Assembly: GCA_028714855.1 (NCBI GenBank)
Contig: JAQTLP010000001.1
Coordinates: 126,572-190,571 of the forward strand
Reading direction: 5' to 3'
Source: Phycisphaerae bacterium
GTDB taxonomy: Bacteria; Planctomycetota; Phycisphaerae; Sedimentisphaerales; Anaerobacaceae
DNA: 64,000 nucleotides
Positions 574 to 18,250 of this stretch are shown in pieces (the first letter of the stretch is position 1; each line of letters starts with the position of its first letter). The position numbers and the translations under genes are program-made. The notes under the pieces are model-generated. The model ran no database searches. It was given only the letters and a program-made list of their open reading frames with translations, and was not told the origin of the DNA.

Positions 574-3536
574 ATGGAGGCACGTTAACGCTATCGGGAA
601 CAAATACATACGCCGGCACGACGACGATAAACGCCGGCACATTGACAGTTTCAGGCGGCTCTGCTATCGCGGACGGAGGGGCAGTAAGCCTTGCGAACGT
701 CGCGGGTGCAAGTTTCGAATTATCAACCAGCGAGACGATAGGCTCACTTGCCGGCGGCGGCGCCCTCGGCGGTAATGTCAACCTCAATGCCACGACTCTT
801 ACCACCGGCGATGCCACTAATACTACTTATTCCGGCGTTATCAGCGGCGCCGGCGGCATATTGACCAAAGAGGGAGCAGGAACCCTTACGCTTGATGGTA
901 CGAACAGCTATACCGGTGCAACGAATATAAATACAGGTACGCTGACAGTGGCAGCGGACCAGGCACTTGGCACGGCTGCAGGAGCCACGACAGTGGCCAA
1001 TGGAGCGACATTAGGCATTTCAGGAACCACAAACTATGCGACTGCAGAAGCATTAACGTTAAACGGCACTGGAGCAGCCGGCAGGTCCGGAGCGTTGGAT
1101 AACATCATCAACGACAATACCTTTGCAGGCAACATAACCCTTGCAACAGCAAGCAAGATAGGTTCAACGGCAGGGACACTGACGGCATCCGGGACAATAG
1201 ATAACGGCGGGAACTTACTGACCGTAGGCGGAGCAAGCGACGCAACATTGAGCGGAGTAATCAGCAATACAGGCGGACTGACCAAGGCCGATGCAGGCAC
1301 GGTAACACTGTCCGGAATAAACACATATAGCGGGATAACGACAATCAATGCCGGTACTCTAAGCATCGGCGCCGACTCCGGATTAGGAACAGCGCCTGGT
1401 GCAGCGACAGCAGGGCAGATAGTCTTCGGTGGAGGCATACTGGAGTCATCAGGCAGCTTCACCCTTGCCGCCAACAGGGGTATAGCAATGACCGGAGCAG
1501 GCACGATAGATGTAGACGCAGGTACGACACTAACATATAACGGCATCGTTGCCGGAGCAAGCGCCCTGACGAAAGCAGATACGGGAACTCTGAGCCTTGG
1601 CGGAACAAATACCTATACCGGCGGGACGACATTTAACGCCGGCACAATAATCCTCGGCGATGATGCTGCACTTGGTACTGGAACGTTGACCCTTGGCGGC
1701 GCCGGCACTATTCAATCAAATGATGACGCCCGGGCGGTGAGTAATGCAATCGCACTTGGCGGCAACGCTTTGACGGTTTCGGGCGCAAGCAATCTGACCC
1801 TCAGCGGGGTGATCAGCGGTGCCGGTGCCGGCAGTACTTTGACAAAGACAGGTACCGGTACTCTTACACTTACCGGTGTCAATACCCATGTTGGCCTTAC
1901 TACATTAACAGCCGGTACTTTAACAGGTGCTTTTTCTCTTAATGGTGCCGGCGGACTTACACTTGGCGGCGGAACCTTCCGGCCAGGTAACAGTATCGGA
2001 ACTGTCGTTATTGTTGGACCTTATACTCAGAATGCAGGAAGCACACTCGAAGTAGAAGTTTCAAACTCGGGCGGGGTACTAACCAGTGATCTTCTGGATG
2101 TAACTGGCACAGTAAATCTCGCAGCCGGCAGCACTATTGACGTAGTTGATGTCAGTCCTGCCGGTTCGATAATTGTAACGGGGGACACTTTTAATATCAT
2201 TCAAGCAGGCGGAGCTATTACCGATGGCGGTCCGACCATTACCGATAATTCCGCCGTGCTGAGCTTTACCGGCGGGGTCAGCGGCGCTTTCTATCAGTTG
2301 ACAGCGGCACGGCGGACATTTGCCTCTGCCATCGGCGGAGGCGGCGGTGGTCCATTAGGGGCGATTGATTCTGATATGGCTAACGCAACCGGCGACTATA
2401 TAACGTTAATCAACGCTCTTACCGAGCTGAATACGGCCCAGCTCCGCGACGCAGAAGAACAACTTGACCCGCTGCCTCATGCTTCATCAACAATAGTATC
2501 TATCAGAAACACTCAACAAATGACCGGCAATCTGGCGAATTATCTAAGCGCACGGCGTTCAGGTACCGAAAGGGCCATGATGTTCGACTCTCAGACATAC
2601 GAGCGCCAAACGCTGATAGCAGACGCATCGAACGACCCTCGAATGCTTGCCTATGTCATCAATGAAAACAAGAAGATAGAGGAAATGCAACAAGAAGCAG
2701 CAACAGATAACGGCATCAAAGGTTTTTTCCGGCCATTCGGAGTTTTTTACGACCACGACACGACTTCTGGTATGACGGGTTTCGATGCCAAAGCGGTCGG
2801 CGCCCTGTTCGGTGTTGACAGGAATTACGGGTCCAACTGGATAGCCGGTGTCGGCGGCGGATATACCCGTTCCTCGCTTCACTTTAAGGGAAACCGCGGC
2901 GAAGGAGAGTCGGACAGTTTCAGAGTCGGGCCTTACGCATCTTACAGCAAAAAGAACTTCTTCGTCGACACATCGGTAAGCTTAGGTTTCCACGAGAATA
3001 AGAATAAGCGCAATATAAGGTTCGGCACTATTAACCGAACCGCCAGAGGTGATTACAGAGCCTACGATTTATCCGTATATGCCGGGACCGGTTACGATTT
3101 CCATCTCAAAGCTTTGACGGTTACTCCAACCGCATCCATGCAATATATCACCTATCACAGCGAAGGTTTCCGGGAGACAGGAGCAGGTGCGGCCGGCCTG
3201 AAGGTGAACTCAACGACATCGGAATCCCTTCGGAGCAAGCTGGGCGTGACACTATCAAAGGTCCTCGAATTACACGGGACCAAAGTTATTCCGGAAGTAT
3301 TTGCCGGGTGGGCGCATGAATTTATGGATGACGAGAATATCCAAGCCAGATTTGTAGATGGAACCGCAAAATTCACGACCGGTGTTGATGATGAATGGGA
3401 CGACAGTGTATATTTTGGAGCCGGCCTCTCGGCTTTGTTGAAGAAAAATGTCTCGGCCTTCGTACGATATGAAGGCGAATATTCTTCAGGCAATGGCATA
3501 AATGCATTGAACTTCGGGATTACCGTTCTGTTTTAG
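1..3536 (+). CDS. Autotransporter with passenger-associated repeats (5' end outside window)
   Basis: The frame is open from base 3, so the start lies upstream. The passenger carries at least six copies of the passenger-associated transport repeat, each reading about LTKxGAGTLTLSGxNTYTG followed by TTINAGTL, which predicts a right-handed beta-helix. From about base 2720 to the stop the protein changes to a roughly 270-residue autotransporter beta-barrel (GVDRNYGSNWIAGVGGGYTR near its start) and ends in the alternating pattern NFGITVLF with a terminal Phe, as outer-membrane barrels do. By family knowledge this is a type Va secretion protein whose barrel inserts in the outer membrane and displays or releases the passenger. 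The linker near bases 2340-2530 is less repetitive and could be the helical plug. The ligand or substrate cannot be told. The first 573 bases contain a nearly exact internal duplication. Confidence 0.9.
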   Translation, partial: SYTGTTASTDRGFTVNATGGEIDVTTGGQTLTIDTTGIVNAGTLTIGGAGNTTVSSVISGAGALTKAGAGTLTLSGDNTYTGVTTIGAGGTVSVGTIGNGGVAGNLGQATNAVGNLVLDGGTVSYTGTTASTDRGFTVNATGGEIDVTTGGQTLTIDTTGIVNAGTLTIGGAGNTTVSSAISGAGALTKADGGTLTLSGTNTYAGTTTINAGTLTVSGGSAIADGGAVSLANVAGASFELSTSETIGSLAGGGALGGNVNLNATTLTTGDATNTTYSGVISGAGGILTKEGAGTLTLDGTNSYTGATNINTGTLTVAADQALGTAAGATTVANGATLGISGTTNYATAEALTLNGTGAAGRSGALDNIINDNTFAGNITLATASKIGSTAGTLTASGTIDNGGNLLTVGGASDATLSGVISNTGGLTKADAGTVTLSGINTYSGITTINAGTLSIGADSGLGTAPGAATAGQIVFGGGILESSGSFTLAANRGIAMTGAGTIDVDAGTTLTYNGIVAGASALTKADTGTLSLGGTNTYTGGTTFNAGTIILGDDAALGTGTLTLGGAGTIQSNDDARAVSNAIALGGNALTVSGASNLTLSGVISGAGAGSTLTKTGTGTLTLTGVNTHVGLTTLTAGTLTGAFSLNGAGGLTLGGGTFRPGNSIGTVVIVGPYTQNAGSTLEVEVSNSGGVLTSDLLDVTGTVNLAAGSTIDVVDVSPAGSIIVTGDTFNIIQAGGAITDGGPTITDNSAVLSFTGGVSGAFYQLTAARRTFASAIGGGGGGPLGAIDSDMANATGDYITLINALTELNTAQLRDAEEQLDPLPHASSTIVSIRNTQQMTGNLANYLSARRSGTERAMMFDSQTYERQTLIADASNDPRMLAYVINENKKIEEMQQEAATDNGIKGFFRPFGVFYDHDTTSGMTGFDAKAVGALFGVDRNYGSNWIAGVGGGYTRSSLHFKGNRGEGESDSFRVGPYASYSKKNFFVDTSVSLGFHENKNKRNIRFGTINRTARGDYRAYDLSVYAGTGYDFHLKALTVTPTASMQYITYHSEGFRETGAGAAGLKVNSTTSESLRSKLGVTLSKVLELHGTKVIPEVFAGWAHEFMDDENIQARFVDGTAKFTTGVDDEWDDSVYFGAGLSALLKKNVSAFVRYEGEYSSGNGINALNFGITVLF

Positions 3537-3706
3537 ATAAGCGTCTTCGCCAATATAAAAACCGAATTGTAATTGCAAAAAAGAAATAGAAAGGCCGAAG
3601 AGGGCACTTTTTCGCAAAAAACGGGGTTATTTAAGGACTTTAACTTCTTGTTGGATAGGCAGTTGGGGAAAAACGCGCTTTTTTTCTCAAAAAACCGGAA
3701 AATTTA

Positions 3707-3735
3707 TTGACAAATAGCAGCAGCTACTGTATTAT
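3707..3735 (+). promoter_or_regulatory. Sigma-70-type promoter for the PEP-CTERM gene
   Basis: TTGACA at 3707-3712 and TATTAT at 3730-3735 are separated by 17 bp. This is a near-consensus promoter, leaving a leader of about 85 bases before the start codon of the following gene. No known riboswitch was recognised in the leader. Confidence 0.65.
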
Positions 3736-3826
3736 GCCTGTTGCGGTGGATGCCTCCGGTTTACGTACTATGCTGGGGAAATTCAGAAGATGAGAAGGAA
3801 GGTATAAGCGTTATAAGGAGGAGTAT

Positions 3827-4447
3827 ATGATGAAAAAAGTCAAGTTTTTTGTAGTAGCATTTCTTTTACTTTTTGGCACAACTTCTTTAGTAAGTGCTTC
3901 CATTACCGGCTGGAGCTGTGACGACGACGGAGACGGCGTGATAGTCATGGGTTCGGTAAGCCTGACACCGGTAGATGACGAGTATGAACTCGCGATGGAC
4001 TGCACACATGTTCTTTGGGAGCCGGGGCATATAGAGGGCGATTTCACGACCGATACACCCGAAGACCCGACTGTTCGTATCATCGAGGACGTGGAAAACG
4101 ACACGGGCTTCGCATGGACTGATTACCATATCACCATGGGCATGAGTCATACCTTCTCATTTGTGACTTCAGGTCTGCTCGTACCGAATGGTTGGACGGC
4201 GACACTCAGCGCTGTGACAGCCGGAACGATACCAAATGGCGGCAGTGGTTATGTAGGAACAATCGACTATGTTAATGTTACGGGTTCTGCATACGATATT
4301 GGCATTGACGATACCGGTACTTTCGGCTTTAAAGTATCGTTCCTCGGAAGCACTTCGTTCTGCACAGAGCAGTATCCTACGCCTGAGCCGGCAACAATTG
4401 GTTTGCTGGGACTCGGAGCGTTGGCGCTTCTAAGGAAGAGAAAATAG
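3827..4447 (+). CDS. PEP-CTERM sorting domain secreted protein
   Basis: A 206-residue exported protein. The N-terminus (MMKKVKFFVVAFLLLFGTTS) is a typical signal peptide, with likely cleavage after SASA-like residues near position 25. The C-terminus has the PEP-CTERM tripartite signal: PEPATIGLLGLGALALL followed by the basic tail RKRK. By family knowledge this is recognised by an exosortase and the protein is processed at the cell surface. The central part has no recognised domain; it is acidic and beta-rich in appearance and has a few cysteines. AGGAGG at 3816-3821 lies 5 bases before ATG 3827 and 8 before ATG 3830, so either of the tandem ATGs may be used. It stands alone between its own promoter and terminator. 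Confidence 0.88.
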   Translation: MMKKVKFFVVAFLLLFGTTSLVSASITGWSCDDDGDGVIVMGSVSLTPVDDEYELAMDCTHVLWEPGHIEGDFTTDTPEDPTVRIIEDVENDTGFAWTDYHITMGMSHTFSFVTSGLLVPNGWTATLSAVTAGTIPNGGSGYVGTIDYVNVTGSAYDIGIDDTGTFGFKVSFLGSTSFCTEQYPTPEPATIGLLGLGALALLRKRK

Positions 4448-4470
4448 TATCTATTCGACTACTATGCAAA

Positions 4471-4501
4471 AGGGCTCAGAAGAAATCTGAGCCCTTTTTT
4501 T
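4471..4501 (+). terminator. Rho-independent terminator after the PEP-CTERM gene
   Basis: The 10-bp arms agggctcaga (4471-4480) and tctgagccct (4486-4495) enclose a 5-base loop and are followed by a T run. The A run before the left arm could let it also work for the convergent apt gene. Confidence 0.9.
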
Positions 4502-4530
4502 ATTTACAGGCAACCGCTATCGGCCAAAGG

Positions 4531-5058
4531 TTAGTAAGATATTACCGTTTTAATAACATAGCCTTGGAGTTTTTCCCGGCCGTGCAGTCCTGACAGTTCT
4601 ATGAGAAAAGATATTGCGGCGATTTGACCGCCGATTTTTTCTATGAGTTTGCAGGCGGCGGCCATTGTTCCGCCGGTAGCCAGCAGGTCATCGACCATTA
4701 AGACTTTCGCGCTTTTGCTTACGGCATCACAATGCACCTGCAATGTGTCTGTGCCGTATTCCAAATCGTAGGTTATGCTTTCGGTTTTGGACGGCAGCTT
4801 GCCTTTTTTGCGTATTGGTACAAAGCCAGCACCGAGTTTTCTCGCGACGGCCGAACCGAATATAAATCCCCTTGCCTCAACAGCGGCAACATAGTCGATA
4901 TCCGCGTCTATAAAGGCGGCGCATAAAGCATCTATCGCTGCTGCAAATGCCTTAGGGTCGGCTAATAACGGCGTGATGTCGCGAAATAAAATTCCCTTTT
5001 TGGGCCAATCGGGTATGCTGCGAATGTAACTTTCGAGATTGATTTCATTAGTCGACAT
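4531..5058 (-). CDS. apt: Adenine phosphoribosyltransferase
   Basis: A 175-residue protein of the usual Apt length. It joins adenine and PRPP to AMP in cytosolic purine salvage. The PRPP-binding loop VLMVDDLLATGGTMAAA is intact at about residues 118-135, and the N-terminal region with IRSIPDWPKKGILFRDITPL is characteristic of Apt. It is the last gene of a leftward run, 50 bp after the sigma factor gene, and ends at the shared hairpin at 4471-4501. Nothing is odd about it. Confidence 0.95.
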   Translation of the reverse strand: MSTNEINLESYIRSIPDWPKKGILFRDITPLLADPKAFAAAIDALCAAFIDADIDYVAAVEARGFIFGSAVARKLGAGFVPIRKKGKLPSKTESITYDLEYGTDTLQVHCDAVSKSAKVLMVDDLLATGGTMAAACKLIEKIGGQIAAISFLIELSGLHGREKLQGYVIKTVISY

Positions 5059-5108
5059 TTATTTTCCCATCCATGGTATTGTCGCGGGTACCGTTAAGCA
5101 GGTGCCCA

Positions 5109-5969
5109 TTACCGTTCGTTCATATATTCGTAAAGTTTAGTAAGAGCGCTGCGTTGAATCTGGCGAATTCTCTCTCGTGTCAGACCTACCTGCTTACCTA
5201 TCTGCTTTAATGTCATCGGCTTGCGTCCATCAAGCCCGTAATGCGACCTCAAAACATCGGCTTCCCTTGGTTCGATTTCATTGAGCAAACTCAAGACCTT
5301 TGTCCGTTCTTCATCGGCAACCAAAGTATCCTCCGGCTTGCCCGCATTTTGATCCTGCAATGTTTCCTCGATTATTTGATTGTCTTCCGTTCCGTCACTG
5401 CCGGAGGTATCTCTCACAGAGCCAAGGATTTTGACAATGTGATGTATGATTTTTGCCTGGCGTACCGGCAGGTGCATTATCTCTGCCATCTCTTCGGCAT
5501 CCAGCGTTCTGCCGAGCCTGCTTTGGAGCTCCGCCGCAGTATGCCGCCAGTGGTTCATCAGCGCAACCATATAGGTTGGGATATGCACCGGCTGAACATT
5601 AGCCAGCAACGCACGTTTGATACTCTGCTTTATCCACCACGCCGCATAGGTGCTAAAACGGGTTCCATAGTCAGGGTCAAAGTAATCGACAGCTTTTATA
5701 AGGCCGAGATTGCCCTCCTCAATCAGGTCGCCCAGGCTCATCCCCCTGCCCGCATATTTTTTTGCGATATTAACGACCAGCCGGAGATTGCTTCGCACCA
5801 ACAGCTCCCTAGCCTGCGGATCGTTTTCTTCAACGACCAATTTTCCTAACGAATGCTCCTGCTCCACAGTCAGCAGCGAAGCCTCGTCAATTTCCTTAAG
5901 GTAATCTTTTATGGTGATATCAAATGCTATGGTTAGCTCCTCCGTCCCTCCAAAGCCCTTCAATTCCAA
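5109..5969 (-). CDS. Group 2-type RNA polymerase sigma-70 factor
   Basis: A 286-residue sigma-70 family protein. Region 1.2 (DYLKEIDEASLLTVEQE), region 2 (LRLVVNIAKKYAGRGMSLGD, then DLIEEGNLGLIKAVDYFD and the FSTYAAWWIKQSIKRAL core for -10 recognition), region 3 and region 4 (LTRERIRQIQRSALTKL helix-turn-helix for the -35) are all present. The long N-terminal region 1.1 of the primary sigma factor is absent, so it is more likely an alternative RpoS/SigB-like or group 2 factor than the housekeeping one. It follows rpsA by 145 bp, so it may be cotranscribed with the translation genes or have its own promoter. The regulon cannot be told from the window. Confidence 0.9.
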   Translation of the reverse strand: MELKGFGGTEELTIAFDITIKDYLKEIDEASLLTVEQEHSLGKLVVEENDPQARELLVRSNLRLVVNIAKKYAGRGMSLGDLIEEGNLGLIKAVDYFDPDYGTRFSTYAAWWIKQSIKRALLANVQPVHIPTYMVALMNHWRHTAAELQSRLGRTLDAEEMAEIMHLPVRQAKIIHHIVKILGSVRDTSGSDGTEDNQIIEETLQDQNAGKPEDTLVADEERTKVLSLLNEIEPREADVLRSHYGLDGRKPMTLKQIGKQVGLTRERIRQIQRSALTKLYEYMNER

Positions 5970-6114
5970 CTATAAGGTTAGATTCGGTTTCGACCTCAAC
6001 ACTTTTATAAGACAATCGACACTTTGCCATAGACAAACCTGTTTGAAGTATCGGTCAAATAAGCCTGCAGGTTTAGGCGATCAAATGCAGCGGGTCGATA
6101 CCTACCATCAGGCC

Positions 6115-7911
6115 TTAATTATCGGGCGTCTGCTCTGTGTTATCATCGCCGCTGGTCTGTTCGGACTTATCTGTTTCTTCCAGCGGTGCGATATTCAGAT
6201 CCGAAAGAACGGTTTGAGCGCCTGTTGAGGCAGGCTTCTGGGTAGATTCGGACGCTTGTTCTTCAGCAGCCCACTGCACCCTGCGCAAACTCAACCCGAT
6301 TTTACGCGCTTCAGTATCAACTCTTAGAATCTTAACCTCAATCTCTTCACCCAGCTTAACAATATCCTGTGTTTTTTCAATCTTATGGTCGGCAAGTTCA
6401 GAAATGTGCAACAGTCCTTCCAAGTCGGGCTCAAGCTCAACAAATGCGCCAAAATTGGTAAGCTTTGTTACTGTTCCTTTAATAATCTGTCCCGGTATAT
6501 ACTTCTCAGGGATCGCATGAGCCCACGGATCTTCGGACATCTGCTTTATTCCCAGAGATATTCGCCGTTTTTCCTCATCGACTTCCAAAACAACACATTT
6601 AACTTCCTGCCCCTTTTGCAATACCTCGCTGGGATGGCTATATTTCTTTGTCCAACTCATATCAGAAATGTGTATCATCCCATCAATACCCTTTTCTATC
6701 TCCACGAATGCGCCGAAATTAGTCAGACTGTGCACAGTGGTGGTAACAATGGTTCCAACCGGATATTTCTGCGAAGCAATTGTCCAGGGATTGGTTTCGG
6801 TTTGCTTCAGCCCCAGCGAAATTTCCTGTTTCTGCCTGTTAACACTCAACACAACCACCTCAACTTCGTCACCCAAATTGAGCATCTCGGAGGGATGTGT
6901 CAGGCGTTTGGTCCAGCTCATCTCACTAATATGCACTAATCCTTCAATTCCATCTTCAAGCCGGATAAACACGCCATAATTCATTACATTTACTACTTTC
7001 CCCTTGACCCTTGCTCCAATCGGATAGCGCTGCTCAACATTTTCCCAGGGGCTGGAGGTTTTTTGTTTCAAGCCCAAAGAAATCCTCTCGCCTTCCTTAT
7101 CCACCCCAATAACAACGACCTCGATTTCCTGGTCGAGCTGAACGACTTCTGAAGGATGTGATATCCTGCCCCAGCTCAAATCAGAGATATGCAGCAGGCC
7201 ATCGACGCCGCCCAAATCCACGAACACGCCGAAATCAGCGATGTTTTTCACAACGCCTTTTCGCACCTGATCAACCTCGATTTCTGACAGGACTTTTTCC
7301 TTGCTGCTCTTGCGTTCTTCCTCAATAAGCTTTCGTCTCGATACGACGATGTTTCGGCCTTCAATATCTATCTTGAGAATCTTGCACCTAAGTTCCTTGC
7401 CGATAAACCTGCTGATATCGCCCGGCTTTCTGATGTCAACCTGCGAAGCAGGCAAAAACACAGGTACGCCAATATCAATAAGCAAGCCACCCTTGATGCG
7501 TCTTACAACTCTGCCGTCAACAATATCGCCTTCCTTTTTGGTATCGACAATTGTTTCCCAGCCCCTGATTCGGTCGGCTTTACGTTTTGAGAGCAGGATA
7601 AGGCCGCCCTCGGAATCCGTATCTTCAAGCAGGACTTCGATTTCTCTGCCCGGAGCTACTTCATCCGGACTGTCAAATTCACTGGCATCGACGACGCCTT
7701 CGCTTTTGAGGCCGACCTCGACGATAACATCATTTCCTATTTGCGAAACGATAGTGCCTTTAATAATAGTCCCCGGCAATCGCGAATCGACCTTTGTCTG
7801 GAGTACTTCTTCCAAAAACGCGGTTTCTTTATCACTGAACATTTTGCCGACCTGCTGGTCGATGACTTCCTGCGACAGGCCTAATTTGTTAGCTATATTT
7901 CTATCAACCAT
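6115..7911 (-). CDS. rpsA: 30S ribosomal protein S1
   Basis: A 598-residue protein with six S1 (OB-fold) RNA-binding domains in a row. The first two, before about residue 190, are more diverged; the last four each carry variants of VxNFGAFVELExGIxGLLHIS and end with the recurring ISLGLKQ. It helps mRNAs bind the 30S subunit. The acidic, Gln/Thr-rich C-terminal tail after about residue 550 is low complexity. It follows ispH by 106 bp on the same strand, as in the cmk-plsC-ispH-rpsA order known from other phyla. The leader has two short GC hairpins, at 7957-7973 and around 7999-8011. Confidence 0.95.
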   Translation of the reverse strand: MVDRNIANKLGLSQEVIDQQVGKMFSDKETAFLEEVLQTKVDSRLPGTIIKGTIVSQIGNDVIVEVGLKSEGVVDASEFDSPDEVAPGREIEVLLEDTDSEGGLILLSKRKADRIRGWETIVDTKKEGDIVDGRVVRRIKGGLLIDIGVPVFLPASQVDIRKPGDISRFIGKELRCKILKIDIEGRNIVVSRRKLIEEERKSSKEKVLSEIEVDQVRKGVVKNIADFGVFVDLGGVDGLLHISDLSWGRISHPSEVVQLDQEIEVVVIGVDKEGERISLGLKQKTSSPWENVEQRYPIGARVKGKVVNVMNYGVFIRLEDGIEGLVHISEMSWTKRLTHPSEMLNLGDEVEVVVLSVNRQKQEISLGLKQTETNPWTIASQKYPVGTIVTTTVHSLTNFGAFVEIEKGIDGMIHISDMSWTKKYSHPSEVLQKGQEVKCVVLEVDEEKRRISLGIKQMSEDPWAHAIPEKYIPGQIIKGTVTKLTNFGAFVELEPDLEGLLHISELADHKIEKTQDIVKLGEEIEVKILRVDTEARKIGLSLRRVQWAAEEQASESTQKPASTGAQTVLSDLNIAPLEETDKSEQTSGDDNTEQTPDN

Positions 7912-11914: not shown

Positions 11915-12311
11915 TACGACAGCAAGGATATACGGTGATTAAGGTCTAATCTGATGTGTTCGATGTTTGAAACGTCAATTTTAATGCGGCATAAGCCATC
12001 TCGACGAGAGTAATAGCCGCCAACTTCCTGCTGGCGGCTAAACCTCGCCTCGCTTTTTCCTTCCCGCCTATCTCAGCGGAGAAATACCACATTCATATAT
12101 GAAGCGAAGCAGGTTGGTGAAATGTTGATGGAAATTCTGATTTTTTGGGAAAAATGCCTCGCCAAAGCACTTTAGGATATCTGGCCTGATTTAGCTAGGA
12201 ACGAGAAAACTCCGGAGGTTACAAAAGATGGATTTTTTTGCTTAAAACCGCCAAATCCGGCATTTAACAAGGCAATAATTTCCCCCGTCCGCCATTCTCT
12301 AATCTCCCCCC
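11915..12311. other. Noncoding interval with one strong hairpin
   Basis: About 400 bp between acylphosphatase and the ECF sigma promoter. I see no convincing ORF. A perfect 9-bp inverted repeat, tagccgcca (12014-12022) and tggcggcta (12032-12040), has a 9-base loop. It has no T run, so it may be only a weak terminator for the acylphosphatase gene or another RNA structure. Confidence 0.5.
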
Positions 12312-12375: not shown

Positions 12376-12933
12376 GTGCTTGTGGAGAGGGTAAAAACGG
12401 AATCTGTGCCGCCGGCCAATGTAGCCCGCGCGGCAGAAATCTTCTCGAAATATGAAGATTTTATCCGTACGGTTATTTGTTACCATGTCAAAAATGATGC
12501 CCAGGCGGATGATTTGCTCCAGGATTTCTTCCTTTCTCTTGTTTCCAAGCCCATCCCCGCAAATATTCATAATGTCAAAGGCTATCTTTATAAGGCGATA
12601 ACCAACGATATCGTTGACGCCGTTCGCCGGGTAGAGAAGTACAAAACTCGAATGGGCAAATATGCTGAATGTTTTAATTATTCGGTCAACAACAACGAGC
12701 CGGAAAACGCCTTAATTGAAATAGAGCAAACAAATGAGATGTTCAGACTCATCAAGGGGTGTTTACGATATAGTGAAGCTCAGGCGATTACTTTGCGATA
12801 CAAAAACAGTTATAATATCGAAGAGGCAGCAAAAAAGATGAATGTTAATAATAGAACCATCAGCAGATATATCTCCACAGGGTTAAATAAAGTCCGTCAG
12901 TTTTTAATAGTAAAACAAGGTGATTTAGAATGA
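12376..12933 (+). CDS. ECF-type RNA polymerase sigma factor
   Basis: A 185-residue sigma-70 family protein of extracytoplasmic-function size. Region 2 lies at about residues 25-95 (DDLLQDFFLSLV and VKGYLYKAITNDIVDAVRR) and region 4 at about 125-180 (LRYSEAQAITLRYKNSYNIE, then AAKKMNVNNRTISRYI as the helix-turn-helix). Regions 1 and 3 are absent, as expected. The start is a GTG after a weak TGGAG; a second in-frame GTG is at 12382. Its stop overlaps the next gene's start in an ATGA (12930-12933), implying translational coupling to its anti-sigma partner. Confidence 0.9.
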   Translation: MLVERVKTESVPPANVARAAEIFSKYEDFIRTVICYHVKNDAQADDLLQDFFLSLVSKPIPANIHNVKGYLYKAITNDIVDAVRRVEKYKTRMGKYAECFNYSVNNNEPENALIEIEQTNEMFRLIKGCLRYSEAQAITLRYKNSYNIEEAAKKMNVNNRTISRYISTGLNKVRQFLIVKQGDLE

Positions 12934-14606
12934 TTACTCACAGTCCTAAATCGTTATGCAAGGAAGCTGAGTTGTATTACTATGATTTTCTCTATGATGA
13001 AAGCCGCAGACTTATTCCAGAACCTATCATTAGCCACATTGAGCAATGCTTGCCTTGCCGGGAACAGATAAACCATCTTGAAGCGGCGTTATTGCAAGCC
13101 GATGGTCTTGAATCGGGGCGTGTACGAGTCAGTCCTGCGGTTGCCACAATGCTGGAACTTCATTTTGCTTATACCGGCAAGCCTGTGACCTGCAATATTG
13201 CAAAACCTTTTCTGCCGACCCTGCCAGACCAAGTCTTGGGGATACATATACCAACACCGATAGTAGCGCATGTGTGCGATTGTCAACAGTGCTCTGAAGA
13301 TTTAGATGTAATTCGATGTCTCAATCTCAGGCATGAACAATTATGCCGGTTAAGCCGGCTTTTTGCAGATAAATCTGCCGGGAGTAATATCAGCTGCACA
13401 GAAGCCCAAAATGCTATCCCTTCGATTATATCAATGGCTTTTAGTGAAACCGATTCGGAAGTCTTAAAACACTTGTGCACGTGCCCAGTCTGCCGAAAAC
13501 TGGTTTATAAAGAGCGACAAAAATTCTGCGACAGTTTGCCGGAGTACGTTCCATCTCCGGGACTTCCCTGCGAGTCAGTTTCGGCAAGCGATTTTTTCGA
13601 TTATGTCATACCATACGGAATTGATCCGGCCAAGGAGCAATACTCTAAATTCAGGGAATCGTTCAGCTCACATGTAACCAATTGCCCAAAATGTCTGGCT
13701 AAAACGCAAGAGCTGCACAAGGCCATATATAGAATTCCCGAACGGGCTGAATCTGACGTCGTTACTATATACCAGATAGATGAATCCGCTAAAACCCAAG
13801 CGGCCAGTGGAACCGAGGAGCTTTATGCCGGTTTTCCCATAAGAGTAGACGTAAAGCAACGCGAAGAAATGAAGACTGAGCAGCCGGTTCCAAATGTTGA
13901 TTTTGCCGCCGCCCTAAAACAAAAGGTCTCAGTAAAAAAATTAAAGCCGTTGCTTAAAACTGCCATTGCTACAGCAGCAGTGATATCCATAGCAGCTGCG
14001 ATGCTGCTCAATATACCAACAGCCAAAGCAGTTACGCTGGAAAGAATCTACAAGGCCATCAAAAAAGCCAGAAATGTCCACACTACAAATTTTGCCCCTG
14101 ATAAGACAAAAATAATACAAGAAACATGGGTGTCGCTTACGTTAAATATTTATCTGTGGAAGTCTGGAAAAGAGCTTGTTCTATTGGATATTCCCAATAA
14201 GGTAAGAAAAGGCAAACAAGCGGACACTGCCGTAACCGAGACAACCCCATTAACTACAGCTTCGGCCGCTGACATCGAGGAAAAAATAACCGGCTCTTTA
14301 GGGTTAATGCCTTATGCCATATCCGACGTTCCTGAAGACGCCGTATGGAGCCACGTCGCTGACTTAGCAGACATTACTAAAAGCATCGAAGTATATGATT
14401 TGACGTGGACCGACAGAGCTTCCGGCGGCCCTGTCGTGCTCAGGAAGTGGCGGATATTTGCGGATTCCGAGACAAATCTTCCCCGGAGAATAGAGTGGTA
14501 TGTAAAATCGGCCGCTGACAGTGATTATATTGCAACATCCGTGACAACAGTTGAATATTTAAGCAATAGTGAAATGCAGAAAGTTATTAAAGACGCGTCT
14601 TTTTAG
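12930..14606 (+). CDS. Membrane-bound anti-sigma protein with four tandem ZAS zinc-binding motifs
   Basis: A 558-residue protein coupled to the ECF sigma gene. The N-terminal half contains four copies of the zinc-binding anti-sigma pattern Cys...His-x3-Cys-x2-Cys: C10/H36/C40/C43, C88/H114/C118/C121, C156/H181/C185/C188 and C214/H248/C252/C255. The usual single-domain anti-sigma factor has one. A single membrane segment follows at about residues 343-362 (TAIATAAVISIAAAMLLNIP), and the remaining 195 residues, presumably periplasmic, resemble LolA-like lipoprotein-sorting folds with WxS and DLTW segments; that assignment is weak. The expected role is to hold the ECF factor at the inner membrane until a periplasmic signal arrives. 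Why four zinc motifs exist is unknown. Confidence 0.85.
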   Translation: MITHSPKSLCKEAELYYYDFLYDESRRLIPEPIISHIEQCLPCREQINHLEAALLQADGLESGRVRVSPAVATMLELHFAYTGKPVTCNIAKPFLPTLPDQVLGIHIPTPIVAHVCDCQQCSEDLDVIRCLNLRHEQLCRLSRLFADKSAGSNISCTEAQNAIPSIISMAFSETDSEVLKHLCTCPVCRKLVYKERQKFCDSLPEYVPSPGLPCESVSASDFFDYVIPYGIDPAKEQYSKFRESFSSHVTNCPKCLAKTQELHKAIYRIPERAESDVVTIYQIDESAKTQAASGTEELYAGFPIRVDVKQREEMKTEQPVPNVDFAAALKQKVSVKKLKPLLKTAIATAAVISIAAAMLLNIPTAKAVTLERIYKAIKKARNVHTTNFAPDKTKIIQETWVSLTLNIYLWKSGKELVLLDIPNKVRKGKQADTAVTETTPLTTASAADIEEKITGSLGLMPYAISDVPEDAVWSHVADLADITKSIEVYDLTWTDRASGGPVVLRKWRIFADSETNLPRRIEWYVKSAADSDYIATSVTTVEYLSNSEMQKVIKDASF

Positions 14607-14618
14607 AACAGCGGCATT

Positions 14619-15419
14619 TTATTTCGGCACCCAAAGGGGCTTTTTGTTTTTATAGTCAACGCCCGTCTTCTCAACAAACAAGTCTTTAGCTTTTGTTAAA
14701 CTGACATGACCATCCGCAAATCCGACATTCACGGTTTTACGCGGATGCCGGCCGTCTATGGCATCGGGTTTTTGGTCGGGCCATAAATCTTTTCTTTCAT
14801 TAATCCAAAGACCGGGTACATAAGCAGTATCTTCGATTGCACCTTTGCTAAGAACCACAGGAGGCTCATCTACCGCATTCCACCAGCTTATTATACTATA
14901 GCCGCTGTCAACGATAAGCAGGGTGCTGGCGGGACGCGGCATATCACTGCTTCGCAAGGGCGTTCCAACAAATTCCGCCATACGGCTTTGTTTGTCATCA
15001 GTACCCTTGCATATAGAACGGTTCACGCCATAATTGCCGCAAAGGACATTGTTTTTGAACTTGGTACCTCTCAGACGTTTGGACGGGCATAATGCCACCG
15101 TTCTGGCCTTGTTGGCATTGCTGTAATAATCTTCCAACTGGTTAAACCACCACCATCCCGGTCTATCATATGACCTGTATCCCGGGTAGCCGCCCGTTGG
15201 CGGGTCTTTAGGCGAGCTGTCGAGGCCGTAAGGAAGGTTTTGATTTTCCAGTTCGTAACTAAACATGCCCTTCAGTAACTGACTAATATTCGAGCCGCAA
15301 ACGGCTACTTCAGCCTGCTTCCTGGAAAGCCGCAACGCCGGCAATAATAGAGCCGCAAGCATCGCAATTATCGCAATTGTCACAAGCACTTCAATGATTG
15401 TAAAAGCGGAACGCCTCAT
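14619..15419 (-). CDS. Pseudopilin-like protein with prepilin cleavage/methylation motif
   Basis: A 266-residue protein. It starts with MRRSAFTIIEVLVTIAIIAM, the type IV prepilin N-terminus: short basic leader, phenylalanine at the cleavage site, glutamate at +5 and a hydrophobic helix. The leader has Ala where the usual Gly precedes the cleavage site (SA|FTIIE). The C-terminal part has the GRHP...GFADGHVSL element, close to the H-x9-DG prepilin-associated motif common in planctomycetes; here the spacing is ten. Four cysteines are present. Such proteins are abundant in planctomycete genomes and are surface or pseudopilus-like; the exact role is unknown. It is convergent with the anti-sigma gene (12-bp gap) and is separated from the upstream secreted protease-like gene by a terminator. 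Confidence 0.85.
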   Translation of the reverse strand: MRRSAFTIIEVLVTIAIIAMLAALLLPALRLSRKQAEVAVCGSNISQLLKGMFSYELENQNLPYGLDSSPKDPPTGGYPGYRSYDRPGWWWFNQLEDYYSNANKARTVALCPSKRLRGTKFKNNVLCGNYGVNRSICKGTDDKQSRMAEFVGTPLRSSDMPRPASTLLIVDSGYSIISWWNAVDEPPVVLSKGAIEDTAYVPGLWINERKDLWPDQKPDAIDGRHPRKTVNVGFADGHVSLTKAKDLFVEKTGVDYKNKKPLWVPK

Positions 15420-15530: not shown

Positions 15531-17336
15531 TCAGGCACATGCCTGCATATAATAATACGTCCATTCGCCCGTATCTGTACAGTTGCCTGGTTCTCCAGGA
15601 ACTTCCATACAGGGTGACTTTCGGTACCTGGGCATTGGGTACTGGTAGCAGTTTCCGCTCGCGGCAACTCCACAGCCCAGTCGCGTGAAGAACTCCCTGC
15701 ATTCGCCACCACATCCGCCAGCATAGACGCAGTATATAATATACCATTCCTGTTTTAGCAGGTTGCATTTATAGCCGGAGGCCCCTATGATATTACGAAG
15801 CTCGCTTTCGTCGATTTCGGCAAACTCGCCTTTTATAGCGTCTTCAGTATTGGAAATCAAAATCGCTATGCCACCGATCCAATCCTCCGGAAAGGAGTCA
15901 ATATCTGTCCGACAGTAGAATTGGTTGCTGGCCAAATCCACCGTCCAGACATATTTAGCATCAATTGTCTCAAGAGCAACAAAATGTTTTCTGCCGGGTA
16001 TATGCAGGATTGCCTTGCAATCGTGCAACTTCTTCAGCGTCTGGACATCGGTCTTGACAGCCCTGCAGTGAAGGCCCATGCCTTGTGCAAATTGCTTCAT
16101 TTCATAAAGATTTGTGGATTTATCCGGCCCATTTACCAGCTGAGCGAACTGTTGGTCTGTGATATTTTTACCCAACTGCGAAGTAATATATTTTAATGCT
16201 GCCGTTGCGCAGTTCCTGGGTTGTGCACTTTCAGAAGCTGCATAAGCCAATCTTTCGGTTAAGAGCAGATTTGTATCGACTCCCTGTGAGTAACGATACG
16301 TTTCCGACTTACCGCCGCTAAGAGAAAAACGCTCTATCAATGCATCGGCTTCATAGATGACCTCGAAATCGTAACTTTCAGGAGCATTCGAATCTATACT
16401 GGTAATATCCCACAAGTCACGAGCCAATAATCTTTTTGACCCGGTTTCGTACTGCTCCAGCAAAATGGTGAATGGAATCCAACCGCCGGCTGTCAACTGA
16501 TAGTTGGAGTATTGTTTGGAGGAAATGACAACACCATCCCTGCTTGTTAGACAGGATATTACGGCGTAATCCTTTTGCGGGTCCATTACAAACTCCATTT
16601 GCAGGCCATCAGGATTATTAAGCGTTAGACTTATTTGTGTTTGGCCATTAATTTGCTTTTCTATCGCAACAGCGTCCGCAGCGGCGAGATTATCGTATGA
16701 ATAAAAGCCGTATCCCCAAGGAATCAAACCTGCTGTCAGCGACCCGTTGACAACATGGGGGATACGGCCTGTCGTATCAACGATGGCGTGATTGCCGGGC
16801 AGAAAATAAGTGGTATATTTTTCACCGTCCCAAGCGAATATACGTCTGGCATTCCAGTCCAAGTTAAACTGCTCGGTCATATAATTACCGGCCAGTTCTT
16901 TGCCGGGCCTTACTGAATCTGTGCGCGAATTTACGTTGATTTCCCAGTAAAATCTGTCTCCATCGAACTTTACAATGACTTTCGAACTCATCGTATATTC
17001 GTTGGACAATCTGTATCGAGTATTAAACGGCTCGGCATCAAGTCTCATTTTTTGCAACTCTTCCGTAAGCTCTCTTTTGTTCGGGCTGTCCTGATATTGC
17101 TGAATATCTTTGTTGATTTGGTCATTGACCATATCTGCGTCCATCATTTTCGGGGCTCTGTATTCTTCGTGTGCTGCCTCAATCGTCCCTGCGGGTATCC
17201 AGGTCTTTCTTGGCTGGTTTGTTATTTTTTGAAAGATTTGTAAAATTTCCTTTCTTTCCAAGGGCCTGTCTGCAAAAGCAGCACCACTAACAAACAATAA
17301 AAAAACTGCTATCGACATAAAATTTCTTGTCTTCAT
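15531..17336 (-). CDS. Secreted protein: LolA-like region, C39 peptidase domain, double-glycine-leader-like segment and Cys-rich tail
   Basis: A 601-residue protein with signal peptide (MKTRNFMSIAVFLLFVSGAA, cleavage near AFA22). Residues 24 to about 360 look like an outer-membrane lipoprotein-sorting (LolA-like) beta fold. Residues about 370-495 fit a C39 cysteine peptidase with C376 (PRNCATAAL), H451 (GRKHFVALE) and D467 (VWTVDLAS). Residues 508-519 (IDESELRNIIGA) match the double-glycine leader consensus exactly in position: hydrophobic at -12, E-L at -8/-7, I at -4, G-A at -2/-1. The 82-residue tail after it has nine cysteines, including AGGCGGEC. C39 domains normally cut bacteriocin leaders after GG in a separate peptide; here enzyme and leader-like site are in one chain. 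A terminator follows. The domain calls are mine; the processing is a hypothesis. Confidence 0.72.
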   Translation of the reverse strand: MKTRNFMSIAVFLLFVSGAAFADRPLERKEILQIFQKITNQPRKTWIPAGTIEAAHEEYRAPKMMDADMVNDQINKDIQQYQDSPNKRELTEELQKMRLDAEPFNTRYRLSNEYTMSSKVIVKFDGDRFYWEINVNSRTDSVRPGKELAGNYMTEQFNLDWNARRIFAWDGEKYTTYFLPGNHAIVDTTGRIPHVVNGSLTAGLIPWGYGFYSYDNLAAADAVAIEKQINGQTQISLTLNNPDGLQMEFVMDPQKDYAVISCLTSRDGVVISSKQYSNYQLTAGGWIPFTILLEQYETGSKRLLARDLWDITSIDSNAPESYDFEVIYEADALIERFSLSGGKSETYRYSQGVDTNLLLTERLAYAASESAQPRNCATAALKYITSQLGKNITDQQFAQLVNGPDKSTNLYEMKQFAQGMGLHCRAVKTDVQTLKKLHDCKAILHIPGRKHFVALETIDAKYVWTVDLASNQFYCRTDIDSFPEDWIGGIAILISNTEDAIKGEFAEIDESELRNIIGASGYKCNLLKQEWYIIYCVYAGGCGGECREFFTRLGCGVAASGNCYQYPMPRYRKSPCMEVPGEPGNCTDTGEWTYYYMQACA

Positions 17337-17578
17337 GATTATCTCCTTCTCTTAAATTCAGGCTGGTAAAATTTATTTAGCAACCAGACTCTTGTTGTCG
17401 GGACAATTGCTAAAAGTCTTTCTGTAGAGAAGGCGATTGTGAAACAGGAGATGTGGATTGCTTTCCGCCAAGTTTATCGAAATTAACCTGCAAAAAAACA
17501 AACATTCAGGTGGAATGCAGCACCGTTGCCATGCGATTTGGAGGGCACCTGCAACAAAAGTATTACAGACGAGTCCTG

Positions 17579-18250
17579 TTATTCGGCCTTTTCAAGCCAG
17601 AATTCGCAAAATAGTCTTAAGTCATTGAAGTCGACGTTCCCGTCAATATCAAGGTCTGCTCCCTGACACCAGCCGGGCTCGTTACAGCCTGTTTGCAGCC
17701 AGTGGGAGGCGAGTATTGCATAATCATTAAAATCAACTTTGGTGTCTTGATCTAAGTCTGGTCGGACATGGTTAAAGATAAGAGTATAAAGCGGCTCGGT
17801 TGTACTCACGTCGTAATTATAGAATTCAACGTTGCAGTAACCTGTATCTACAGCATTATAATCAATAATGAACCAGTCACCCGCATCCGGGTCTTCACCT
17901 CCATAGAAATCAAACCCGAAACCGGGATATTCGATTTTCACCACATAAGCAAAGTCACCGGCAGCAGGCAAACAAGAGCCGGGACACTCATATCCATTAC
18001 AATCTCTTCCGTATAAAATATTTGTATCTTCCGTGACCAGAGCGCCGCCATACCACTCCTCAGCAACATCCGAACTGACAATAATCGTCAGTTTGGTCTC
18101 AACCATAACATCCCGGTATACGAAGGGGATACAGGGATCGGCTAATTCAAGGGGTGTGCTGCCATCAGAAAGGCATACTCTTGTCGAAACCTCTCCTGCC
18201 GCCATTGAGGTAATGCCAAAAAATAACATAAAGGCTATTATCTTTTTCAT
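17579..18250 (-). CDS. Secreted protein with C-terminal dockerin-type repeats
   Basis: A 223-residue protein. It has a signal peptide (MKKIIAFMLFFGITSMAAGE) and an uncharacterised beta-rich, Cys-containing body (residues about 22-165). At the C-terminus two calcium-binding dockerin-type repeats appear: DLDQDTKVDFNDYAILASHW and DLDIDGNVDFNDLRLFCEFW, each with the D-x-D-x-D/N-F-N-D loop. In planctomycetes such repeats are common on secreted proteins and need not indicate a cellulosome. It lies 242 bp upstream of, and on the same strand as, the C39-fusion gene, with no recognised terminator or promoter between, so cotranscription is possible but not shown. Confidence 0.85.
   Translation of the reverse strand: MKKIIAFMLFFGITSMAAGEVSTRVCLSDGSTPLELADPCIPFVYRDVMVETKLTIIVSSDVAEEWYGGALVTEDTNILYGRDCNGYECPGSCLPAAGDFAYVVKIEYPGFGFDFYGGEDPDAGDWFIIDYNAVDTGYCNVEFYNYDVSTTEPLYTLIFNHVRPDLDQDTKVDFNDYAILASHWLQTGCNEPGWCQGADLDIDGNVDFNDLRLFCEFWLEKAE

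Follow-up and report, generated by a model that had tools for sequence, protein, structure and literature searches.

An exported planctomycete protein combining a C39 peptidase, a double-glycine leader motif and a cysteine-rich tail

Peptidases of family C39 are known mainly as cytoplasmic parts of transporters, cutting separate precursors in trans. A gene on the reverse strand of the 64,000-nucleotide stretch analysed here (the window; Phycisphaerae bacterium, contig JAQTLP010000001.1) encodes a C39-like protein with a signal peptide, a double-glycine leader motif and a cysteine-rich tail, raising the question whether such a chain could free its own tail as a peptide outside the cytoplasm. 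The best explanation at present is an exported self-processing precursor, acting in cis or between copies, which would free a disulfide-rich peptide of ~82 residues (probability roughly 0.6), with the cleavage itself being predicted.

Domain architecture, distribution and peptidase site

The protein is composed of the following parts, with signal peptide, leader position and an 82-residue tail with nine Cys being as described in the original prediction:

15531..17336 (-): coding sequence, 601 aa, with signal peptide, LolA/RseB-like domain, C39 peptidase, double-glycine leader and Cys-rich tail in this order
17268..17336 (-): signal peptide, residues 1-23 (...AAFA/D, boundary placed by eye), from the sequence and similar N-termini of homologues
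16287..17267 (-): N-domain, residues 24-350, LolA/LolB/RseB-like fold (Foldseek, VIA)
15846..16286 (-): C39 peptidase domain, residues 351-497 (Pfam match; VIA Z 14.0 to 6mpz)
16209..16211 (-): predicted catalytic Cys376, aligning with the C39 nucleophile (79/79)
15984..15986 (-): predicted catalytic His451 (79/79)
15936..15938 (-): predicted catalytic Asp467 (D 78/79, N 1/79)
15780..15815 (-): double-glycine leader motif, residues 508-519, IDESELRNIIGA, with cleavage predicted after A519 (conservation; strict pattern; AF2)
15534..15779 (-): Cys-rich tail, residues 520-601, predicted product (eight conserved Cys; own fold; separate gene in the split locus L091)

The N-terminus (MKTRNFMSIAVFLLFVSGAAFA) is signal-peptide-like, and nearly all complete homologues begin alike. 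Peptidase_C39 (PF03412; residues 371-497, E 1.1e-14, 54.9 bits vs. a curated cut-off of 22) is the sole Pfam match in the 601-aa chain, membrane and ATP-binding domains of ABC transporters not being matched. Among NCBIfam models, C39_FapD matches best (E 2.2e-5), its 23.8 bits lying below the equivalog cut-off of 330. The N-domain (residues 24-350) is most similar to LolA3 of P. gingivalis according to Foldseek (E 3.5e-9; RseB E 1.6e-4), and VIA yields Z scores of 8.0-12.1 to LolA/LolB proteins (LolB 12.1, LolA3 11.5). Homologues mostly belonging to one family (f7; L056, L069-L087 and others) are devoid of an equivalent of residues ~62-107, a stretch modelled in the window protein as a hairpin of helices (67-111) belonging to the LolA-like domain.

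Homologues are present in 89 of 198 related genomes searched, most of them matched from the N-terminus to the last cysteine (e.g., 63 % identity in Planctomycetes bacterium GWC2_45_44). Across 392 genomes of the phylum, long matches are restricted to the planctomycete order of the window; outside this order the matches are partial and mostly cover the C39 region of open reading frames of ~720-1050 aa, presumably ABC transporters. Within the order, the tail is present in 83 of 161 genomes, always following the C39 part except for one split locus (L091) and fragments at contig ends. Likewise, a search for stand-alone tail siblings in 61 and then 161 genomes retrieved unfused tails solely from this split (genome G076) and from contig-end fragments. 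The window genome contains two other C39 matches (L093 and L094, on contigs C3 and C15), namely a TPR-containing open reading frame (932 aa) and a membrane protein (368 aa) whose C39 part is exposed. A C39 match resembling a peptide-exporting ABC transporter was not found in this genome.

The predicted structure of the whole chain (AlphaFold2 with 69 homologues; mean pLDDT 90.9, pTM 0.88) supports the domain assignment, since residues 353-498 match C39 domains with Z 12.6-14.0, the best match being 6mpz, the structure of a C39 domain in complex with a leader. Profile alignment assigns residues of the leader-binding groove of PCAT1 to positions in the window protein: G135, contacting leader position -4, corresponds to G489 (Gly in 74/79, opposite a conserved Ile) and A55 to L410 (Leu or Met in 77/79). 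At the position of groove residue I59, the window protein has K414 (Lys in 61/79), unlike the known enzymes. Furthermore, most tailed homologues lack an oxyanion-type Gln six residues ahead of the Cys. These two departures would suit a catalytically idle scaffold, in which a one-time C39 domain survives as a fold and the leader Gly is conserved by chance or for structural reasons. Against such idleness stands the conservation of the predicted triad in an alignment of 80 sequences (79 with tails, to which all counts refer): no substitution occurs at C376 or H451, and only one (Asn) at D467, whereas the idle C39-like domains of type I exporters are without the Cys (PMC6363468). Thus, an idle domain appears very improbable, and the triad and C39 fold originally proposed are borne out.

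Leader motif and cysteine-rich tail

The segment at residues 508-519 had been proposed to fit the double-glycine leader consensus position by position. Among the 79 tailed homologues, Gly at -2 (78/79, 99 %) and hydrophobic residues at -12 (99 %) and -4 (95 %; Ile in 63/79) agree with this proposal, but Glu at -8 does not, occurring in only 21/79. Hydrophobicity is also found at -7 (78 %) and -15 (68 %), and this spacing, with polar positions in between, is that of double-glycine leaders. A strict pattern ([ILVMF]x4[ILVMF]x2[ILVMF]xG[GAS]) falls on the G518 column in 54/79 homologues, compared with 0-2 times at 12 other glycine columns conserved to at least 85 %, and shuffled proteins yield 0.14 matches per protein at any position. 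Judged from these alignments, the motif is more than chance. Searches with single leader-plus-tail members against Pfam and NCBIfam (>43,000 models) gave weak matches only, among them three families of double-glycine leaders (TIGR04149, Bacteriocin_IIc and ComC). TIGR04149 weakly matched three members (best E 0.0026), with the match in the window protein located at residues 506-519.

Position -1 is occupied by Gly (40), Ala (23) or Ser (10) in 73/79 homologues (92 %), the residues accepted by C39 enzymes, and by Leu, Gln, Met or Thr in the other six; the motif is therefore kept in most homologues, with departures at -1. These four residues would presumably be poorly accepted by the C39 enzymes known so far. 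Five of the six exceptions (Leu/Met/Gln) form one subclade, all of them belonging to a single family, which argues that not every member would be cut in the usual way. One may therefore consider the leader a built-in pseudosubstrate docking uncut in the C39 cleft and holding the enzyme shut, with the tail serving as a permanent binding domain that opens the enzyme on meeting a target. This alternative would suit the subclade and agrees with -2 Gly being retained in the six homologues where cutting would be blocked at -1, with the docking of the leader in the AlphaFold2 model and with the fusion almost never being split. It conflicts, however, with acceptable residues at -1 in the large majority of the family, and is considered unlikely, though it is the strongest of the alternatives discussed here.

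In the whole-chain model, the leader (pLDDT 83-86) forms a helix at residues 510-513 (-10 to -7) and a strand/bridge at 517-518 (-3, -2). This predicted helix-then-extended shape is that of C39-bound leaders; in published complexes the leader helix spans ~-10 to -4 and is followed by an extended GG in the narrow active site (PMC6959990, PMC6363468). When predicted without the C39 part, the leader loses the strand and drops to pLDDT 62-64, whereas the tail retains 90-96, a comparison of predictions that concerns secondary structure and confidence only. The tail is thus likely an autonomous domain and not part of a continuous fold with residues 508-519, the leader being shaped by the rest of the chain.

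The window tail (S520-A601) comprises 82 residues with nine Cys. As a family trait the count of nine does not hold: eight cysteines are conserved in 96-99 % of the homologues, exactly eight are present in 53/79, and C546 is the extra one of the window protein. Sequence change is somewhat faster in the tail than in the C39 domain. Neither a solved fold (best Foldseek E 1.5, best VIA Z 3.6) nor a convincing Pfam or NCBIfam family was found for it.

A split version of the fusion

Genome G076 harbours, besides a normal fused copy, the split locus L091 on contig C198. It encodes (i) an enzyme of 466 residues (1803-3203) consisting of signal peptide, LolA-like and C39 domains and stopping just past the latter, and (ii) directly upstream of this tail-less enzyme, two open reading frames of ~127 residues (609-992 and 1294-1677). 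Each of the latter combines a signal peptide with a GG-terminated segment (IPDDEAAQVTGG and VPESEAALIVGG, respectively) and a Cys-rich tail; these are the only cases in which the double-glycine leader follows the signal peptide in a small precursor. The two precursors are 56 % identical to each other, and their tails match the profile of the fused tails with E 5e-10 and 2e-6. L091 is located outside the usual gene cassette, has no pilin or dockerin-like neighbour and adjoins a repetitive open reading frame of 1077 residues (3364-6597, +).

The arrangement at L091 implies that the tail can be the product portion of a short exported precursor with a double-glycine leader, encoded beside a tail-less C39 protein. 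Separate neighbouring genes for enzyme and peptide in this relative suggest an extracytoplasmic release of the peptide by the enzyme, and we regard the split as the best evidence, at the level of gene organization, that the fused leader may be a substrate and the fused tail a product. It also bears on the pseudosubstrate reading, since a permanent lid makes little sense where leader and tail reside in separate exported precursors. Activity of the split enzyme is uncertain, because its triad Asp is not at the usual place in the alignment (VSQSD).

For the fused protein, self-processing would proceed as follows: Sec would carry the chain across the inner membrane, and disulfides would form in the tail outside the cytoplasm. 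The leader helix (~-12 to -4) located after the C39 domain may then be bound by this domain, either within one chain or between two copies, and a cut after G518-A519 would free the ~82-residue peptide from the LolA-like/C39 part. Counting against self-processing are the six departures at -1, a hydrophobic -7 in only 78 %, K414 and the mostly absent oxyanion Gln. The original idea of self-cutting and peptide release is thus supported in part: joint conservation of triad, leader and tail, the split version and the predicted leader shape speak for it, and the departures at -1 against it.

Gene neighbourhood and comparison with known systems

The gene is part of a cassette recurring across the order. 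In the window, the following features accompany it:

17579..18250 (-): exported protein with a dockerin-like repeat, 223 aa (Dockerin_1 at E 2.3e-4, narrowly missing the curated cut-off)
17432..17457 (-): ECF-like promoter element TCCACA-N16-CGCC, located 121 nt before the start codon (recurrence in homologous loci)
14619..15419 (-): pseudopilin-like protein, 266 aa (N_methyl E 3.5e-5; weak H-X9-DG match below cut-off)
12930..14606 (+): membrane anti-sigma-like protein, 558 aa (position after the ECF sigma factor; Cys-rich N-terminus; only weak anti-sigma matches)
12376..12933 (+): ECF sigma factor, 185 aa (TIGR02937 E 1.9e-16)

Among loci with enough flank, the dockerin-like gene is found upstream in 63/82 and the pseudopilin gene downstream in 66/84; the facing pair is represented by the anti-sigma-like membrane protein in 42/53 and the ECF sigma factor in 34/50. 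Profile comparisons of the N-domain, the tail and the C39 part with the neighbouring anti-sigma, dockerin-like and pilin proteins were negative. Directly beside the cassette, the window contains phage genes (18568-22065, +) for a portal (PHROG 64, E 9e-25) and a major head protein (PHROG 1328, E 7e-79), which are absent at the matching place in a genome of the same genus (G001, L174); in G049 (L175), a portal fragment adjoins the cassette.

The promoter motif, generalized to TC[AC]ACA-N16-CGC[CT], occurs in 22/86 upstream regions of the C39 gene, 109-153 nt before the start and always with a spacer of 16, compared with 0.016 per 300 bases in the background; it marks the family to which the window belongs. 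It is not enriched upstream of the dockerin-like, sigma or pilin genes. The motif resembles an ECF promoter and would fit the adjoining sigma factor; expression is probably controlled by the neighbouring ECF sigma/anti-sigma pair. A second element (TCAACATTT-N-CGCT, spacer 16) at 12103-12128 (-), between the acylphosphatase-like and sigma genes and pointing left, is a possible further ECF promoter.

The conserved pilin-like neighbour also invites a third alternative, namely that the C39 domain cuts another exported protein in trans (e.g., the pseudopilin or the dockerin-like protein), in the manner of FapD in the periplasm, and that the tail merely targets the C39 domain. Also pointing in this direction are C39_FapD as best NCBIfam match, albeit far below the cut-off, and the properties of FapD, which has a Sec signal and a Cys needed for secretion (PMC5557850). 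However, consensus lines of the pilin and dockerin-like neighbours contain no conserved leader-like GG motif, while the C39 protein itself has one, so that processing of a neighbour is rather improbable. In the self-processing reading, the pseudopilin and dockerin-like proteins would probably be partners at the cell surface. As to the role of the peptide as surface component, signal or antibacterial, we lean towards the surface or signalling, because no conserved immunity-like gene is found beside the C39 gene.

The C39 domains of PCAT1, LahT and ComA have the fold, the Cys-His-Asp triad and the leader consensus in common with the window protein. In contrast to them, its C39 domain is not joined to a transporter; it has a signal peptide for export, is linked to a LolA/RseB-like domain and is followed in the same chain by leader and tail, with Lys at the I59 position. 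The nearest free C39 peptidases are FapD of the Pseudomonas functional amyloid system and the NapP type, which likewise have no transporter, but neither a LolA-like domain nor a substrate in the same chain. FapD works in the periplasm, its target being still unclear and a clear substrate motif lacking (PMC5557850), and NapP adjoins GG-motif peptides (PMC11798529). LolA, LolB and RseB share with the window protein the fold of its N-domain and are not fused to a peptidase and peptide. Precursors of class II bacteriocins, ComC and TIGR04149 RiPPs share the leader consensus, whereas the leader of the fused protein is not N-terminal in a small precursor but internal, after a 500-residue exported enzyme.

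Peptidase family, leader and LolA fold are thus each known; their combination in one exported chain, with a regulatory/surface cassette and a natural split, was not found in the literature searched. Neither a joint treatment of C39 peptidases, Planctomycetes and double-glycine motifs nor a cis-acting C39 precursor was found there, in line with the original statement that no one-chain system is described. More tentatively, and at somewhat less than even odds, the protein may be a Sec-exported single-chain peptide factory of one planctomycete order, which unites peptidase, leader and product, matures itself outside the cytoplasm and is under its own ECF sigma/anti-sigma control; its LolA/RseB-like domain might sense the envelope state, or hold it, up to the moment of cleavage.

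A near-canonical leader and its putative product ride here with an exported C39 enzyme, and the split form provides a natural control. If the self-processing reading is true, double-glycine processing would take place outside the cytoplasm, without ATP or a transporter, and the tails would represent a new family of bacterial peptides rich in disulfides, encoded by about half of the order's genomes.
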